From assembly GCF_029223185.1 (NCBI RefSeq), contig NZ_JARHUG010000013.1, forward strand, positions 62,001 to 126,000: a stretch of DNA of 64,000 nucleotides, in the 5' to 3' direction. The notes under the pieces were generated by a model that was given only the letters and a program-made list of their open reading frames with translations, was not told the DNA's origin and did no database searches. A program made the translations under genes and the position numbers. Source of the stretch: Aliiglaciecola sp. CAU 1673 (GTDB lineage: Bacteria > Pseudomonadota > Gammaproteobacteria > Enterobacterales > Alteromonadaceae). Numbering within the stretch: position 1 is the stretch's first letter; the number at the start of each line of letters is the position of its first letter. Positions 2,422 to 60,201 of the stretch are shown here, piece after piece.

Positions 2422-4206
2422 ATGGCCGATTACCGCGCTCCTTTAAAAGACATCCAGTTTGTACTTAACGACGTGTTCGATGCTCCCGCTTTGTGGCAAA
2501 GCTGTGAAGCCCTCGCCCAGGTAATCGACGCCGATACCGCTCAGGCTATCCTGGAAGAAGCGGCCAAGTTGGTGGAAAAGGAAGTCGCACCCCGGGCAAG
2601 AAACGCCGATGAGCAAGGTGTTAGCTGGGATGCCGGTAAAGTCACTACCCCCGATGGCTACAAGGAGTCGTTCCAGGCCATCGCCAACGGCGGCTGGATT
2701 GGCTTAAGCGGCGATCCCGAATTAGGCGGCATGGGTATGCCCAAGATGCTCTCGGCCCAGTACGAAGAGCTTTTGTGTGCCGGGGATGTTTCCTTCTCCC
2801 TTTACCCAGGCCTGACTTATGGCGCGACCATGGCTATTTTGGCTCATGGTAGTGATGAGCTGAAGCAAACGTATCTTCCAAAAATGTACTCGGGTGAGTG
2901 GGCCGGCAGCATGTGTTTGACCGAACCCCATGCCGGTACCGATCTTGGCATAATCCGCACTAAAGCTGTCGACAACGGCGATGGCAGCTATAGCATCAGT
3001 GGCACCAAGATGTTTATCACCGGTGGCGAGCAGGATCTAACCGACAATATTATCCATCTGGTATTGGCCAAGCTGCCCGATGCCCCGGCCGGCTCCAAAG
3101 GCATATCCATGTTCCTGGTACCCAAAATTGAGGTGTTGGAAAATGGCGAACTAGGGGGTCCCAATGGCGTTTCTTGCGGTTCTGTGGAGCACAAGATGGG
3201 CATCCATGGTTCGGCGACTTGCGTGATGAATTTCGACAACGCCAAAGGTTATCTGGTCGGCGACATTAACAAAGGTCTGGCCGCCATGTTCGTAATGATG
3301 AATTACGAGCGTCTGGGCGTGGGTATTCAGGGCTTAGGCTGCTCCGAACGTTCCTATCAAAATGCTTTGGCCTACGCCAAAGAGAGGCTGCAAAGCCGAG
3401 CGGCGACTGGCCCTGTTAATCCGGATAAAGCCGCCGACCCCATTCTGGTGCATGCAGACGTGCGCCGCATGCTGCTGAATATGAAAGCCCTGACCGAAGG
3501 TGGGCGCGCTTTCTCCACCTATGTCGCTAAACAGTTGGATCTGGCTAAATACGCCGATGATGCGGAGGTTCGCCAGCAAGCCGATAAGATGGTGGCCCTG
3601 CTAACGCCAGTGGCAAAAGCCTTCTTAACCGATATGGGTTTGGATATTACCGTGCTTGGACAGCAGATTTTTGGTGGCCATGGTTATATCCGCGAATGGG
3701 GCCAGGAGCAGTTGGTCAGAGATGTGCGTATTGCCCAAATTTATGAAGGCACCAACGGCATTCAGGCCCTGGATTTAATGGGCCGCAAGGTGGCCGCCAA
3801 TGGCGGCGAGTATATAAAACTCTTCACCGATGAGATCCAAGCCTTTACCGACGCCCAATCAGATGATGCGATGCAAGAGTTTATCCAGCCGCTGACAAAG
3901 GCACTGGGAACCCTGAACGAGGTAACCCAATGGGTATTGGCACAAAGCGCCAAAGATGCCAATGAAATCGGTGCGGCCTCGGTGGATTATCTGCATCTGC
4001 TTGGCTATGTCAGCTATGCCTACATGTGGGCGCTGATGGCCAAAGCCGCCCTTGAGGCCAAGACAGATGATCAGGATTTCTATCAAGCTAAACTGGCCAC
4101 CGCACGCTACTATTTCGGTCGCCTGCTGCCACGCATCTACAGTCTGCAAGCTGGCATTCAGTCTGGTAGCGCATTGCTGTACGGGCATAGCGACGAGCAG
4201 TTCTAA
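2422..4206 (+). CDS. Acyl-CoA dehydrogenase (about 595-residue, DmdC/AcdA-like subfamily)
   Basis: FAD-dependent enzyme that introduces the alpha-beta double bond into an acyl-CoA thioester, passing electrons to ETF. The product is 594 residues, longer than the classic 380-residue dehydrogenases, with an N-terminal extension and a C-terminal helical domain as in the subfamily that includes the methylmercaptopropionyl-CoA dehydrogenase DmdC. Visible motifs are the FAD-binding MCLTEPHAGTDLG region, GTKMFITGGEQ, the GGHGYIREWGQEQ stretch, and IYEGTNGIQ, whose Glu aligns with the catalytic base of medium-chain acyl-CoA dehydrogenase. A good ribosome site (GGAGG) precedes the ATG. The substrate cannot be read from sequence. 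The gene stands alone between two hairpins. Confidence 0.9.
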   Translation: MADYRAPLKDIQFVLNDVFDAPALWQSCEALAQVIDADTAQAILEEAAKLVEKEVAPRARNADEQGVSWDAGKVTTPDGYKESFQAIANGGWIGLSGDPELGGMGMPKMLSAQYEELLCAGDVSFSLYPGLTYGATMAILAHGSDELKQTYLPKMYSGEWAGSMCLTEPHAGTDLGIIRTKAVDNGDGSYSISGTKMFITGGEQDLTDNIIHLVLAKLPDAPAGSKGISMFLVPKIEVLENGELGGPNGVSCGSVEHKMGIHGSATCVMNFDNAKGYLVGDINKGLAAMFVMMNYERLGVGIQGLGCSERSYQNALAYAKERLQSRAATGPVNPDKAADPILVHADVRRMLLNMKALTEGGRAFSTYVAKQLDLAKYADDAEVRQQADKMVALLTPVAKAFLTDMGLDITVLGQQIFGGHGYIREWGQEQLVRDVRIAQIYEGTNGIQALDLMGRKVAANGGEYIKLFTDEIQAFTDAQSDDAMQEFIQPLTKALGTLNEVTQWVLAQSAKDANEIGAASVDYLHLLGYVSYAYMWALMAKAALEAKTDDQDFYQAKLATARYYFGRLLPRIYSLQAGIQSGSALLYGHSDEQF

Positions 4207-8963: not shown

Positions 8964-10863
8964 CCGCCATGGCCTCAAAGGCTTTTTGCATCTGTTCCAA
9001 TTGTTCCTGACTATCCAGCCAGTCCATCTCCAATTCTTCCAAAGCCTGTTTTTGCTTACTTTGCTGCTCTAAAAGAGATTTGAGTCTGGCCTTGTTGCGC
9101 TCCTCATACAGACTGGTGTCCAGCATTTCGTTTTCAATGGCAGCCAGTTCTTGCTGAAGCTTGTCCATCTTTTTTTCCTGCTCGGTAATCTGCTTGCGTA
9201 GCGGTTGTGTGGCCTGACGAAACTCTGCTTCCTGGCGTTTTTGCGCCTTGCGATCCACTTTTGGGGATGCTGTGTCATTGGTGACAACGGGTGCAGCGGT
9301 TTGCATCAACCAGTTTTTATAGTCATCCAGGTCACCGTTAAAAGGCTCCACCCGGCCACTATCTACCAGATAAAAATCCTCACACACTGTGCTGAGTAAA
9401 AAGCGGTCGTGTGATACCAGCACCAATGCACCTTCAAAGGCCTGCAAAGCAAGGTTCAGGGCATGACGCATATCAAGATCCAAGTGGTTGGTAGGCTCGT
9501 CCAATAGCAACAAGTTAGGCTTTTGGTAAACAACAAGGGCCAACACCAAACGCGCTTTTTCACCACCAGACATAGGTGCGACCTTCGCCAATGCCTCATC
9601 GCCATGAAAACCAAAACCGCCGAGGAAGTCCCGTAAGGATTGCTCTGTCGCCTTAGGATCCAGTCGCAGTATATGTTGTAGTGGCGAATCATCTGGTCGC
9701 AGATATTCCAATTGATGCTGGGCGAAATAGCCTATTTGCAGTCCTGCTGATTGATGGTAATGCCCGGCCAGCGGTGGGTTTTCGCCAGCCAGCATCTTGA
9801 TCAAGGTGGACTTGCCGGCACCGTTTCGCCCCAGCAAACCTATGCGACTGCCCGGTACCAGATTGAGTTGCAGCTTTTCCAGTATCACCTTGTCACCGTA
9901 ACCTGCCTGTACTTGCTCCATGCTGACAAGTGGGTTTGGTAACTTCGGCGGGGTAAAGAAAGAAAATGAGAAGCCGCTTTTATAATGAGCAGGCGCCAGT
10001 TTCTCCATCTTTTCCAACTGCTTAATGCGACTCTGGGCCTGTTTGGCTTTAGATGCCTTAGCTTTAAATCTGTTAATAAAGGACTGTAAATGCGCCACTT
10101 GCTGTTGCTGCTTCTGAAAAGCCAGATCTTGCAAGCGCATGCGCTCGGCGCGCTGCTCTTCAAAGGCACTGTAGTTGCCTTTGTAACTATGAAGCTGCTG
10201 TTGCTCGACACTGATAATTTCCGTCACCACCGCATCCAAAAAGGCCTTATCGTGGGAAATCAGTACCAAAGTACCGGGATAACGCTGCAGAAAACGCTCC
10301 AGCCAGATCACCGCATCTAAATCCAGGTGGTTGGTGGGTTCGTCCAGCAACAACAAGTCTGAATGACAAAGCAGTGCCTGAGCGAGGTTCAAGCGCATAC
10401 GCCAGCCACCTGAGAAGGTGCGCACTGGCCGTTGACAGGCCTCCTGCGAAAATCCCAAGCCATCCAGAATAATGGCGGCACGCGCTTCCACATCATAGCC
10501 ACCGGCCTGTTCCAGTAGCGCATGTAACTCTGCAATGCGTTCACCCAGATGTTGCTCCTGGGCATCGGCCAACTGTTGCTGGATTTGACGCAAACGCTGA
10601 TCCCCGTCAATCACGTATTCCAGTGCACTTTTGTCTGAGGCAGGGGTCTCCTGGGCTACCCAGGAAATTTGCCATTGCGAGGGCAACTCAAAATGCCCCT
10701 CATCGGCATGTAATTCATTGCGGAATAAGGCAAATAGGCTCGATTTTCCGCAGCCATTTGCACCCACCAAGCCCACTTTATGGCCTGGGTAAATGGTGGC
10801 ACTGGCAGATTTAAGCAACATCTTGTTGCCACGGATCAAGCCCAGATTGGCGATCTGTATCAT
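8956..10863 (-). CDS. yheS: ABC-F family ATPase YheS
   Basis: ABC-F protein with two ATPase domains and no membrane domain; members of this class act on the ribosome. First domain: Walker A GANGCGKSS near residue 34, signature FSGGWRMRL, Walker B LLLLDEPTNHLD. Second domain: Walker A GRNGAGKST, signature MSGGEKARL and the same Walker B. A linker with many basic residues (FKAKASKAKQAQSRIKQLE) joins them, and a Lys/Glu-rich coiled coil ends the protein. The start MIQIANLGL at 10863 matches E. coli YheS (635 against 637 residues); the frame is open another 41 codons upstream without homology. Confidence 0.94.
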   Translation of the reverse strand: MIQIANLGLIRGNKMLLKSASATIYPGHKVGLVGANGCGKSSLFALFRNELHADEGHFELPSQWQISWVAQETPASDKSALEYVIDGDQRLRQIQQQLADAQEQHLGERIAELHALLEQAGGYDVEARAAIILDGLGFSQEACQRPVRTFSGGWRMRLNLAQALLCHSDLLLLDEPTNHLDLDAVIWLERFLQRYPGTLVLISHDKAFLDAVVTEIISVEQQQLHSYKGNYSAFEEQRAERMRLQDLAFQKQQQQVAHLQSFINRFKAKASKAKQAQSRIKQLEKMEKLAPAHYKSGFSFSFFTPPKLPNPLVSMEQVQAGYGDKVILEKLQLNLVPGSRIGLLGRNGAGKSTLIKMLAGENPPLAGHYHQSAGLQIGYFAQHQLEYLRPDDSPLQHILRLDPKATEQSLRDFLGGFGFHGDEALAKVAPMSGGEKARLVLALVVYQKPNLLLLDEPTNHLDLDMRHALNLALQAFEGALVLVSHDRFLLSTVCEDFYLVDSGRVEPFNGDLDDYKNWLMQTAAPVVTNDTASPKVDRKAQKRQEAEFRQATQPLRKQITEQEKKMDKLQQELAAIENEMLDTSLYEERNKARLKSLLEQQSKQKQALEELEMDWLDSQEQLEQMQKAFEAMADA

Positions 10864-40238: not shown

Positions 40239-40520
40239 AGCCCGGTTCGTCCTGCGAACTTGAAGTGACTTAACGTCACTTCAAGAGGGCTGAACGCGAG
40301 GCCGTGGATGGCCGAGCTGGGACCAAGCCACAGGACGTGTCACCCGCACTAGCATCATTCCGAAGCGCTAGACATCACTCGACAAGCGATGAACGGCCGG
40401 CCGTGGATGGCCGAGCTGGGCTTTTTACGGAGCAGGATGCGAGGGAAAAGGCGCGGTTGGACCCCAGCCACAGGATGTGTAGCTTCGTACGGCCCCTTAA
40501 AGCTTGCTAGCCTAAGCGAC
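40239..40520. repeat. Intergenic GGA-hairpin repeat region A
   Basis: Non-coding gap made of small palindromes. GGCC-GTGGAT-GGCC occurs twice (40300-40313, 40399-40412) inside an identical 22-base segment 99 bases apart. Each copy is followed by a second motif, AGCCACAGGACGTGT (40326-40340) or AGCCACAGGATGTGT (40466-40480), where CAC and GTG can pair around AGGAC/AGGAT. Copy two has extra sequence between the motifs, including GCAGGATGC. Upstream are arms GTTCG and CGAAC around TCCTG (40245-40259) and a perfect 11-bp stem, arms CTTGAAGTGAC and GTCACTTCAAG (40259-40285). The 11-bp stem may terminate the FliL-like gene. No gene is supported here. Confidence 0.75.
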
Positions 40521-57971: not shown

Positions 57972-58784
57972 TTAGCGCTGGCAACGGGGGCAGTAAAAAC
58001 TGTTACGCTGCCCCAAGGTGATACTTTTCACCGGCTCCTCACACACCAGACAGGGCTTTCCCGTTCGGCCATACACCCTCAGTTGCTGGGCAAAATAGCC
58101 CGGATTGCCGTCAACCTGGGTAAAATCCTTTAACGTGGTACCGCCTTGTGTAATCGCCTGTGCCAGGACCTCACGAATACAATCCGCCAAGCGTTCATAA
58201 GCCTGCCGCCCCACCCTGCCCGCCGCTTTGCGGGGATCGATGCCTGCCATAAACAAGGATTCACTGGCGTAGATATTACCCACGCCAACCACCACCTGAT
58301 TATCCATAATAAAGTTTTTCACCGCTTGCTGGCGCTTGCGGGACAACGTATACAAGCGGTCTGCATCAAAGGCTTCTGATAGAGGCTCAGGGCCAAGTCT
58401 GGTAAGCATTTCAAGCTGTGGTTCCCCAGCGGCTTGCCATAAGCAGGCGCCAAAACGCCTGGGATCGTTAAACCTGAGGCATTGGCCATTATCCAGCACC
58501 AGATCCAGATGATCATGCTTATTCAGCGGTGTGTTGGCTGGCACTACACGCAAACTGCCAGACATACCTAAATGCAATATCAGGCTCCCCGGGGCAGTAT
58601 CAATCAACAGGTATTTGGCGCGACGGCGCACACTATTAATCACTTGCCCTTCGGCCTGATACACTTCTTCTGGAATCGGCCAGCGTAACTGACGCTGACG
58701 GACAATAATGTTTTTCAGAGTGCGGTTAGTCAGATGGGGACTGATGCCAAGGCGACTGACTTCAACTTCTGGTAGCTCAGGCAT
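57972..58784 (-). CDS. mutM: Formamidopyrimidine-DNA glycosylase MutM (Fpg)
   Basis: Repairs oxidised purines such as 8-oxoguanine. Catalytic N-terminus MPELPEVEVSRLG (Pro2 and Glu3), helix-two-turn-helix region with NIYASESLF, and the C-terminal zinc finger CLVCEEPVKSITLGQRNSFY followed by CPRC. 270 residues. Its ATG overlaps the TGA stop of the upstream gene by one base. Confidence 0.96.
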   Translation of the reverse strand: MPELPEVEVSRLGISPHLTNRTLKNIIVRQRQLRWPIPEEVYQAEGQVINSVRRRAKYLLIDTAPGSLILHLGMSGSLRVVPANTPLNKHDHLDLVLDNGQCLRFNDPRRFGACLWQAAGEPQLEMLTRLGPEPLSEAFDADRLYTLSRKRQQAVKNFIMDNQVVVGVGNIYASESLFMAGIDPRKAAGRVGRQAYERLADCIREVLAQAITQGGTTLKDFTQVDGNPGYFAQQLRVYGRTGKPCLVCEEPVKSITLGQRNSFYCPRCQR

Positions 58785-59242
58785 CAGCGAAGTGCCTCCG
58801 GTACCAATTCATCCAGGGTTTTGTTCTGGATTTGGAAAAGCTTTTTATCGTATGCAACCCAGACGCTATCATCACGCTCTACTAGCCTGAAGATGCGGCC
58901 TTGAGCTTCGCCAGCAAGCCAGGCCACGACTACTATTCCAGTGTCTAGATCAGCCTCTCCCATTGGGATCAACAGGGCCTGCTGCCAATGATCCACCAGC
59001 GCCATTAATTGGGCTTCATCCAGTGAGGATGCAGGCCTCACACGCCAACCCTGACCAATACGCTCTAATTGATGAGCGCCAAACTCCAACTTCATCAGCG
59101 GAATGTCAGTGGGAAGCAGGGTATGAGAGGTAGCAGGTTCACCGTCGGTAAGAAAACGACCACTTTGGTTAAACAGCAGAATCATCAGCAAGGTGGCAAA
59201 AATCAGAACATTGTTCCAGCCCTTGCGTGAGAGTCGAATCAT
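58784..59242 (-). CDS. Membrane-anchored protein of unknown function upstream of mutM
   Basis: 152 residues: one N-terminal helix (NNVLIFATLLMILLF) after a basic start, then a soluble domain probably outside the cytoplasm. It contains a regular alternation (LMKLEFGAHQLERIGQGWRV, VAYDKKLFQIQNKTLDELVP) that looks like the antiparallel sheet of a small beta domain. No named family recognised. The stop TGA overlaps the mutM start codon, so the two genes are translationally coupled. Confidence 0.7.
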   Translation of the reverse strand: MIRLSRKGWNNVLIFATLLMILLFNQSGRFLTDGEPATSHTLLPTDIPLMKLEFGAHQLERIGQGWRVRPASSLDEAQLMALVDHWQQALLIPMGEADLDTGIVVVAWLAGEAQGRIFRLVERDDSVWVAYDKKLFQIQNKTLDELVPEALR

Positions 59243-59359
59243 AAAAAGCCCCGGTACGGCACATCGTTTTTAATCCGCTAAGCATATCCATTCGCTAGTT
59301 TAGCCTCAACCAGCAATTGGCCATGGTTGCACGCAGGGACACGAATCCCGCCATTGCCG

Positions 59360-59995
59360 AGCATGGTTGCCAGGAGCAACAATCAACAGCTTTAGCTGGC
59401 TTGCAAAGCAAGTGAGCCACAGGACCGAGGCGAATAGACAACGCTCCCCGCAGTTTCGGCATACGACCGCCATGGAAGGCGGAAGTGCAGATTATGCAAG
59501 GAGCATTCACCTGCCCGTCCATCCATGGACATCGCCGAAACAACGCTCCCGGCAGTTTCGGCATACGACCGCCATGGAAGGCGGAAGTGCAGATTATGCA
59601 AGGAGCATTCATCTGCCAGTCCATCCATGGACATCGCCGAAACAACGCTCCCGGCAGTTTCGGCATACGACCGCCATGGAGGGCGGAAGTGCAAATTATG
59701 CAAGGAGCATTCACCTGCCCGTCCATCCATGGACATCGCCGAAACAACGCTCCCGGCAGTTTCGGCATACCGTCCATCCATGGACATAACAGGTTTGCCC
59801 GGAGCAAACCGCAACATCGGAGGCACTACGATGGCCCGAAGGGTGGCGGGCAGGACGCTTTTTCCATACCAAAACGCCTGGAGCGTTTTGGAACGTCGAA
59901 GGAACGTCGACGGCCCGGAGGGTGGAAAACAAGGATGTTTTCCATCGCCGAAACAACGCTCCCCGCAGTTTCGGCATACCGTCCATCCATGGACA
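59360..59995. repeat. Intergenic GGA-hairpin repeat array B
   Basis: Gene-free array of perfect hairpins. With GGA in the plus-strand loop: GTTGC around CAGGA (59366-59380); CCGCC/GGCGG around ATGGAA or ATGGAG (59467, 59569, 59671); ATGC/GCAT around AAGGA (59494, 59596, 59698); GGTTTGC around CCGGA (59792); CCAAAACGC around CTGGA (59869); CGTCGA around AGGAACG (59894); CCC/GGG around GGA (59914); TGGAAAAC around AAGGAT (59923). With GGA on the minus strand: GTCC around ATGGAT (59517, 59619, 59721, 59772, 59981) and GCCGAAAC/GTTTCGGC with GGGAG in the loop (59534, 59636, 59738, 59947). Long open frames here are by-products of the repeats. Confidence 0.85.
59439..59766. repeat. 102-bp tandem repeat (three full units and a partial)
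   Basis: The block starting CAACGCTCCC recurs at 59439, 59541, 59643 and 59745, exactly 102 bases apart. Each unit contains four hairpins: GCCGAAAC/GTTTCGGC, CCGCC/GGCGG, ATGC/GCAT and GTCC/GGAC. In the first unit the left GCCGAAAC arm is degraded. Differences between units are single bases and fall mainly in loops or outside stems (for example ATGGAA to ATGGAG). Because 102 is a multiple of three, each frame repeats itself, which explains the long spurious open frames on both strands. Confidence 0.92.
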
Positions 59996-60022
59996 TAAAA
60001 AAACCCGGCAGAGCCGGGTTTT
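59996..60022 (-). terminator. Terminator of rpmB-rpmG
   Basis: Arms AAAACCCGGC (60000-60009) and GCCGGGTTTT (60013-60022), loop AGA on the plus strand; read on the minus strand it ends in seven T. Lies 23 bases after the rpmG stop. The plus-strand side has TTTTCTT and could also stop transcripts leaving repeat array B. Confidence 0.9.
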
Positions 60023-60045
60023 CTTGGAGACAAAAGCAAGCAAAA

Positions 60046-60201
60046 TTACTTGATTTTGGCTTCCTTGAACAGCACGTGCTTGCGAACAACGGGATCAAAC
60101 TTTTTGATCTCCATTTTGCCAGGCATGTTGCGCTTGTTCTTGTCAGTGGTGTAGAAGTAACCGGTGTTAGCGGTAGAAACCAGTTTGATCTTATCGCGCA
60201 T
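60046..60201 (-). CDS. rpmG: 50S ribosomal protein L33
   Basis: 51-residue ribosomal protein read from the minus strand, ATG at 60201 and TAA at 60046. It begins [19 protein letters not shown], continues [18 protein letters not shown] and ends VLFKEAKIK, near-identical to E. coli L33. It is the version lacking the zinc-binding Cys pairs. Ten bases downstream of rpmB, ending shortly before a terminator. Confidence 0.97.

Follow-up and report, generated by a model that had tools for sequence, protein, structure and literature searches.

A palindromic array between rpmG and a mutM-linked ORF

Within the 64,000-nucleotide stretch of Aliiglaciecola sp. CAU 1673 DNA that we analysed (the window), positions 59360-59996 are occupied by a patchwork of palindromic modules, with loops of the GGA type on either strand. 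On one side of this array is a small minus-strand gene model (60046-60201), which from gene order and sequence we take to be rpmG (L33). Downstream of it stands the terminator that bears the array, a hairpin at 60000-60022 that on the minus strand is an intrinsic terminator with seven T at 60003-59997. The opposite flank is formed by a minus-strand ORF of 152 amino acids (58784-59242), upstream of mutM (57972-58784); this ORF is matched in all eight Alteromonadaceae genomes tested and has no Pfam match. Isolated GGA-loop hairpins also occur outside arrays in other gaps of the window (at 40239-40520, 57953 and 6625).

On the plus strand the hairpin list opens with a pentaloop hairpin, GTTGC-CAGGA-GCAAC (59366-59380). 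Module B, a hairpin of the C-ANGGAN-G type that was also recovered by pattern matching, is present three times (CCGCC-ATGGAA-GGCGG at 59467-59482, a second copy at 59569-59584 and CCGCC-ATGGAG-GGCGG at 59671-59686), as is a mid hairpin, ATGC-AAGGA-GCAT (59494-59506, with copies at 59596-59608 and 59698-59710), and six hairpins of the array are three tandem copies of one 102-bp unit. Further along come GGTTTGC-CCGGA-GCAAACC (59792-59810), which on the minus strand is a terminator-like hairpin; a 9-bp pentaloop hairpin, CCAAAACGC-CTGGA-GCGTTTTGG (59869-59891); CGTCGA-AGGAACG-TCGACG (59894-59912, with a second register at 59893); and TGGAAAAC-AAGGAT-GTTTTCCA (59923-59944), with ACAAGGATGT at its tip, a match to CARGGAUG, which forms the core of the SELEX consensus for E. 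coli CsrA. These are 11 distinct perfect hairpins with GGA in the loop (stem at least 4 bp, loop 3-8 nt, 59366 to 59944); CCC-GGA-GGG at 59914-59922, with a stem of only 3 bp, brings the tally to the twelve that a first-pass annotation of this DNA had claimed.

The minus strand carries nine GGA palindromes, again as had been claimed. Five have the short-loop form GTCCA-TGGA-TGGAC and are copies of module A: GTCC-ATGGAT-GGAC at 59517-59530, further copies at 59619-59632 and 59721-59734, a fourth at 59772-59785 that, read on the minus strand, lies behind the terminator-like hairpin 59792-59810, and a terminator-proximal one at 59981-59994, where the T-tract runs into ATGTCC-ATGGAT-GGACGGTATG. 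The other four, from the palindrome list, are copies of GCCGAAAC...GTTTCGGC with GGGAG in a 13-nt loop (59534-59562, 59636-59664, 59738-59766 and 59947-59975). A TTTT/AAAA stem at 59859, with TCC in its 8-nt loop, is taken as chance.

Short-loop hairpins in 59360-59996 (stem at least 4, loop 3-7, one hairpin counted in two registers) comprise 12 GGA and 5 TCC loops, against means of 0.64 and 0.52 in dinucleotide shuffles; the 13-nt-loop palindromes stand outside this test. None of the 500 shuffles reaches the observed count, and the excess over shuffled sequence on which the first-pass annotation depended is therefore real within the array. When two of the three 102-bp tandem copies are removed, 8 GGA and 3 TCC loops are left against 0.42 and 0.31, again unmatched in 500 shuffles. 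Plain GGA words number 25 on the plus and 17 on the minus strand (12.8 and 9.7 in mononucleotide shuffles), about twice chance; the GGA words of the array stand out by their placement in loops, not by their number. The fold z-scores are -8.7 for the plus and -9.7 for the minus strand (20 shuffles).

The array belongs to a dispersed and polymorphic repeat family

Segments of the array have 22 matches in the source genome, counting the array itself. Nine of 40 genomes contain them: the five of the genus (Bowmanella, the nearest relatives by mutM, with names as in the records), G009 of another genus, which matches well, and three that match weakly. At the rpmG site of eight genomes, the array is present in two (the source and G003), a single module is present in one (G002) and five have neither, so that six of the seven other genomes lack the array. 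A similar terminator stands behind rpmG in all eight, and in the loci L019-L022, whether an array follows or not. Because a like terminator is kept with or without the array, we assign the hairpin at 60000-60022 to rpmG. It had been proposed as the end of a plus-strand RNA; the hairpin is there and is two-sided, but it belongs to rpmG on the minus strand.

The arrays are built from common modules that vary in order, number and orientation, and hairpin blocks are found inside the loop of another hairpin. At two loci (L085 near 15345 and L233 near 117) an extra hairpin block lies within the mid-hairpin loop (GCA / GGAGC), which suggests that loops serve as insertion sites. We collected 28 clusters with at least three C-ANGGAN-G hairpins; they contain 133 hairpins, with 50 distinct combinations of stem and loop and 21 stems. 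A GGA or TCC loop is present in 53 of the 105 distinct hairpins within clusters (stem at least 5, border terminators included), where shuffles give 4.1 of 42.9. The ratio of GGA on the minor strand to GGA on the major strand has a median of 0.65 over the 28 clusters.

With many copies, and with presence or absence at an orthologous site, the array is a member of a dispersed, modular and polymorphic family of intergenic palindromes. The first-pass annotation had offered, as its second reading, mobile modules that also attract CsrA; that reading is supported by the anatomy together with the loop conservation described below, the attraction of CsrA being a prediction. We recognised no description of this repeat family in the titles and abstracts of the open-licence PMC papers that our searches listed.

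The window array has no match in collections of plasmids and named phages. Module A occurs in four IMG/VR contigs, two of which share one stretch, leaving three distinct viral contigs. A six-T pattern with an open loop matches 26 viral contigs, three of them with ANGGAN; the remaining 23 are apparently fortuitous.

Most module A starts lie directly behind terminators

Starts of module A in the fetched loci were located with the pattern ATGTYC-ANGGAN-GRAC[GTA]GTA. Directly behind a terminator-like hairpin and its T-tract lie 29 of the 41 distinct starts (many of the loci were fetched with a pattern starting TT, which is a small bias), compared with one of 48 for module B and 78 of 3000 random, mostly coding, positions. 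Among the remaining 12, eight belong to a second copy in an array, and in L192, L196, L200 and L263 no such hairpin with four T precedes module A. Because the terminators differ in sequence, the rule concerns a kind of site.

The same placement is seen in other families, at two places in G327 and at one in G162 (this copy is on a 4.5-kb contig and is possibly contamination), as well as in the viral contigs L269 and L270/L271; in viral contig L272 the hairpin is present with just three T directly before module A. In L270 the terminator and module A (9425-9554) are flanked by a Clp-protease-type gene on one side and by a Phage_capsid gene on the other. Those of L269 lie near position 3540, and two ORFs of this contig have no Pfam match.

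The loop is kept while the stems vary

CsrA is a global regulator of metabolism and lifestyle in many Gammaproteobacteria; on the prevailing view, a small number of dedicated RNAs titrate it. The loop recognized by CsrA/RsmE is closed by C and G. In the portion of PMC6692469 used here, the RsmE site is given as (A/U)CANGGANG(U/A) and the E. coli CsrA SELEX consensus as RUACARGGAUGU. To see which loop letters are kept, we used loop-open searches in which the stems were fixed and six loop bases left free, with the flanking C and G set by the pattern: TTATGTYC-N6-GRACGG for module A in 59 genomes, and CCRCC-N6-GGYGGAAGTGCAG for module B in six genomes with one mismatch allowed.

A-N-GGA-N fills the loop in 121 of 127 matches (both modules, all matches; module copies are not independent of one another). 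For module A it is found in 50 of 54 matches, with 14 distinct sequences; the exceptions are matches in G423 and G004, which look like chance, an ATGAAA loop (G005) and a GGGGAT loop (G017). For module B the figure is 71 of 73, with 38 distinct sequences. Loop positions 1, 3, 4 and 5 are near-invariant in both modules. Position 2 is G in 29, T in 16, A in 8 and C in 1 of the module A matches, and A in 20, G in 23, T in 25 and C in 5 of those of module B. Position 6 is T in 46 of 54 for module A, where it could pair with A1, and T in 39, C in 14, A in 13 and G in 7 for module B. This arrangement of A, N, GGA and N between C and G is that of the CsrA/RsmE loop, the outer A/U letters not being required. 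Among hexaloops with GGA at positions 3-5 and free flanks, counted in hit-guided samples, A1 and a closing C-G pair are found together in 14 of 23, 31 of 37 and 16 of 25. AGGGAT or AAGGAT accounts for 57 of the 121 loops, where one in eight is expected if both N are random; these loops therefore fit CARGGAUG.

The stems, in turn, change with pairing preserved. In matches with GGA, the variable stem pair of module A is C-G in 42 and T-A in 9 and is never mispaired, and that of module B is G-C in 32, A-T in 27 and G-T in 10, with 3 mispaired. In 16 units, whose selecting pattern held helix 1 largely and helix 3 partly constant, 94.5% of pairs are standard (88.1 in shuffles), five pairs are altered on both sides (2.4 in shuffles, with 2 of 500 reaching five) and the covariation score is 0.169 against 0.074 (0 of 500); the number of pair types shows no excess (8 against 7.1). 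Three of the five doubly altered pairs are in helix 2, which is mostly free in the selecting pattern.

Distribution of the loop across the class

Across 369 genomes of the class, GTCC-ANGGAN-GGAC has 255 matches in 82 genomes, 63 of them in G164 alone. The permuted-loop control ANGAGN has 41 matches in 32 genomes, and the patterns read backward have about 73 and about 131 (hand count), with at most four per genome. Nine genomes from eight families have 5-63 matches each and 147 in total, and the other 73 genomes have 108. Because these 108 are within the range of the controls, the class-wide excess is confined to the nine.

The carriers are unlike one another. In G164 the hairpins belong to a MITE-like element that is bounded by terminal repeats and has its three C-ANGGAN-G hairpins on the same strand; in Bowmanella arrays no terminal inverted repeat is defined, and their far ends vary by eye. 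The ends of the G164 element are CTAGGGAAG...CTTCCCTAG (loci L137-L149, for example L138 7677-7810). In this genome GGA (16 against 9.3 expected, stem 4) is outnumbered by at least one other loop word, and its C-ANGGAN-G hairpins, 11 against 1.0 expected, are mainly copies of one element. In G121 and G175 the hexaloop is accompanied by a GGA pentaloop hairpin, in a different sequence context. In loci L128 (G121) and L262 (G175), a CAAAATCGC-C[AG]GGA pentaloop hairpin accompanies a C-AGGGAT-G hairpin, L261 (G175) is similar, and the L128 composite is within a GTAGGTTGGGGTGA inverted-repeat element. The matches in L131, L250, L257 and L258 resemble coding or unrelated sequence by eye.

Outside the arrays the picture is different. 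A hit-independent 200 kb of the source genome holds two hexaloops (0.34 expected) and five pentaloops, and the control genome G006 two hexaloops (none in coding sequence) and one pentaloop. In G009, the 14 of 20 stretches that were not chosen by matches hold five hexaloops (0.13 expected) and two pentaloops. An earlier genome-wide enrichment rested on partly hit-guided samples, and enrichment of GGA loops is claimed for arrays only: the excess over expectation that the first-pass annotation had proposed to count genome-wide holds in arrays and is not evident beyond them in the hit-independent sample of the source genome.

The arrays as a possible scattered CsrA sponge

The csrA gene is found in 37 of 40 genomes tested, and in eight of the nine genomes with at least five GTCC-ANGGAN-GGAC matches; the ninth, G047, is 75% complete. 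It was not matched in G162 (95% complete, 5% contaminated, four hairpin matches) or in G234 (no hairpin matches). The CsrA of the source genome keeps L4, R6, V42, R44 and E46, residues of CsrA that are named in the consulted part of PMC6692469, and E. coli read-through RNAs are described as binding CsrA in that of PMC8144298.

On the strength of these sequence patterns, we give about even chances to the reading that the arrays are mobile repeats whose transcripts bind CsrA and act as a scattered CsrB. Modular palindromic repeats would spread from site to site, the module ATGTYC-ANGGAN-GRACGGTATG settling immediately after the T-tract of an intrinsic terminator, and more hairpin modules would pile up behind this terminator module via duplication and nested insertion. 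RNA crossing the array would come from terminator read-through, or from antisense transcription that ends at this terminator, which is often two-sided, and CsrA would bind such RNA at many sites. According to this proposal, the ANGGAN loop behind C (or NNGGA) would be kept as the CsrA/RsmE recognition loop because array-crossing RNA is bound by CsrA, while the stems drift by compensatory changes. In the cell, the array would then act as a scattered CsrB sponge, or would tag the transcripts of the element itself with CsrA, and would not be a csrB gene.

A model based on RNA alone faces real difficulties in the strand symmetry of the arrays and in their place behind, not before, a terminator. 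The two-way GGA (ratio 0.65) runs against selection on RNA from one strand, and the mRNA terminated behind rpmG does not extend into the array. Both difficulties would be resolved by read-through into the arrays from either side, or by recognition of the loops as DNA, which would account for loop conservation equally well. More tentatively, and at somewhat less than even chances, we suggest that mobile palindromic repeats of several unlike kinds, in Gammaproteobacteria and in certain of their phages, converged on CsrA-binding loops, one branch landing exactly behind intrinsic terminators, where CsrA would capture read-through RNA.

Alternative explanations

A mobilizing enzyme, an HUH/Y1 transposase or similar, might read the hairpins and GGA loops in single-stranded DNA and insert beside a hairpin with a T-tract, the likeness to CsrA sites being coincidental. 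We consider this a serious though rather unlikely explanation. Presence and absence at the rpmG site, the strict placement behind terminator hairpins, modules in both orientations and blocks within the loop of another hairpin all speak for it, as do the MITE-like carrier in G164 and the copies in viral contigs; however, no such enzyme was found beside an array. The source genome has two Y1-type genes (125- and 111-aa fragments), one of which matches the IS200 model while the other is below both cut-offs and nearer to the REP-associated model, and the roughly 1.5 kb around each contains no C-ANGGAN-G hairpin, just scattered short GGA loops. Nor does reading in DNA by itself predict that N2 and N6 vary freely or that CARGGAUG is over-represented.

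REP/BIME elements and MITEs are short, non-coding intergenic palindromes that are dispersed, clustered and found in both orientations, and the arrays share all these properties. They differ in that a CsrA-type loop is kept while the stems drift, and in being placed exactly behind a T-tract; no Y1 gene is seen at the arrays, and Bowmanella arrays are without a defined terminal inverted repeat. Known REP elements have their signature, of the GTAG/GGAG type, at the foot of the hairpin instead, which also counts against a DNA-level reader of the loop. A REP/RAYT system is not supported in the source genome, where neither Y1 gene is flanked by the palindromes within about 1.5 kb.

It is improbable that the arrays are inert mobile repeats, in which the loop is inherited without selection from a recent common ancestor. 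The modules are indeed homologous, copies within an array are duplicates, and the source genome has no hexaloop excess outside arrays. Such inheritance sits poorly, however, with N2 and N6 varying beside a fixed A, G, G and A within a single unpaired stretch of six, with compensated stems, and with the same loop in unlike carriers.

The first reading of the first-pass annotation was a CsrA-titrating RNA gene of about 600 nt, of the CsrB type, and we rejected the array as a single gene of this kind: GGA is on both strands, no promoter, GacA box or Rfam match was found, and the terminator is that of rpmG. A stand-alone CsrB/RsmY-type gene of this length on the plus strand, ending at 60022, would be in keeping with 25 GGA on that strand, repeated in apical loops as in CsrB, with the two-sided terminator hairpin and with the plus-strand fold (z-score -8.7); we nevertheless regard it as very improbable. 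The minus strand folds equally well (z -9.7) and has 17 GGA, where CsrB concentrates its GGA on one strand, and the site is without the array in six of seven other genomes. The Rfam/Infernal check that had been recommended for CsrB returned no family at gathering score in the window, and the rsmX model scores 18 bits at the array against a cut-off of 56. A simple sigma-70-like consensus, a weak test in which shuffles average 0.5, found no promoter in 59150-60100, and, in agreement with the first-pass annotation, a search with the GacA box consensus found none close to the array at up to two mismatches.

RF00018 is not found in the source genome (all 84 candidates scored), nor is the CsrB model in G004 and G009 (28 candidates scored). 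In three members of the genus it locates a separate locus, at 52.6-68.8 bits and below the cut-off of 71: L275 934-1268 (G001), L274 993-1326 (G002) and L273 991-1317 (G003). In these CsrB-like loci one strand has 23-24 GGA and its complement 2-3; TGTAAGACATTTCTCACA, one letter off the GacA box, stands upstream, and a terminator-like hairpin is seen by eye downstream. That a CsrB-like locus with a GacA-box-like sequence lies elsewhere in these genomes is a further point against the array as such a gene.

There is a very slim chance that the arrays form a kissing-loop scaffold, in which GGA loops pair with opposite UCC loops of the same strand and this pairing conserves them: opposite-facing modules co-occur in many arrays and their core loops are complementary by construction, but such pairing should bring N2 and N6 into agreement across opposite modules of an array, and agreement is 0.31 and 0.42 against 0.35 and 0.54 when permuted (129 pairs).

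Relation to known Csr RNAs and implications

Like the array, CsrB/CsrC and RsmX/Y/Z (RF00018 and relatives) have serial GGA-loop hairpins with a CsrA-type loop core and a terminator at one end. They are genes with a promoter, a GacA box and GGA on one strand, whereas the arrays are two-faced, dispersed and polymorphic. Verified Csr sRNAs are also known from Pseudoalteromonas, a related marine genus. According to the part of PMC11882849 consulted, Pf1-Pf3 of Pseudoalteromonas fuliginea have 25, 21 and 9 GGA motifs and are verified CsrA ligands; unlike the arrays, they are promoter-driven sRNA genes with conserved upstream sequences. The TwoAYGGAY RNA (RF01731) has two hairpins with AYGGAY loops, and CsrA binding has been proposed for it from motif matches (PMC2864571, PMC4333381). 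It has no match in the window at gathering score and is not among the matches listed at E of at most 10 for 59200-60100; in the sections of the two papers cited here it is not described as mobile or terminator-linked. A precedent for terminator read-through is that of RrA/RrB/RrF from the E. coli rRNA operons, read-through RNAs with GGA loops that bind CsrA in vitro (PMC8144298); as described in the cited portion of that paper, these are three near-identical loci between tandem terminators, with no dispersed hairpin array.

If the suggested convergence on CsrA-binding loops is true, it would mean either a distributed, evolving layer of Csr sponges or mobile DNA that uses or placates CsrA. Intergenic palindromes are commonly treated as inert, and a class of them would acquire a function and a testable selective force. 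Were mobile repeats to place high-affinity CsrA loops behind many terminators, free CsrA would depend on read-through and on the number of repeats per strain, which did not emerge from the Rfam scan made here. The loop-open pattern search is a simple test that is applicable to any genome, and some bacteria may carry many hidden CsrA sponges.
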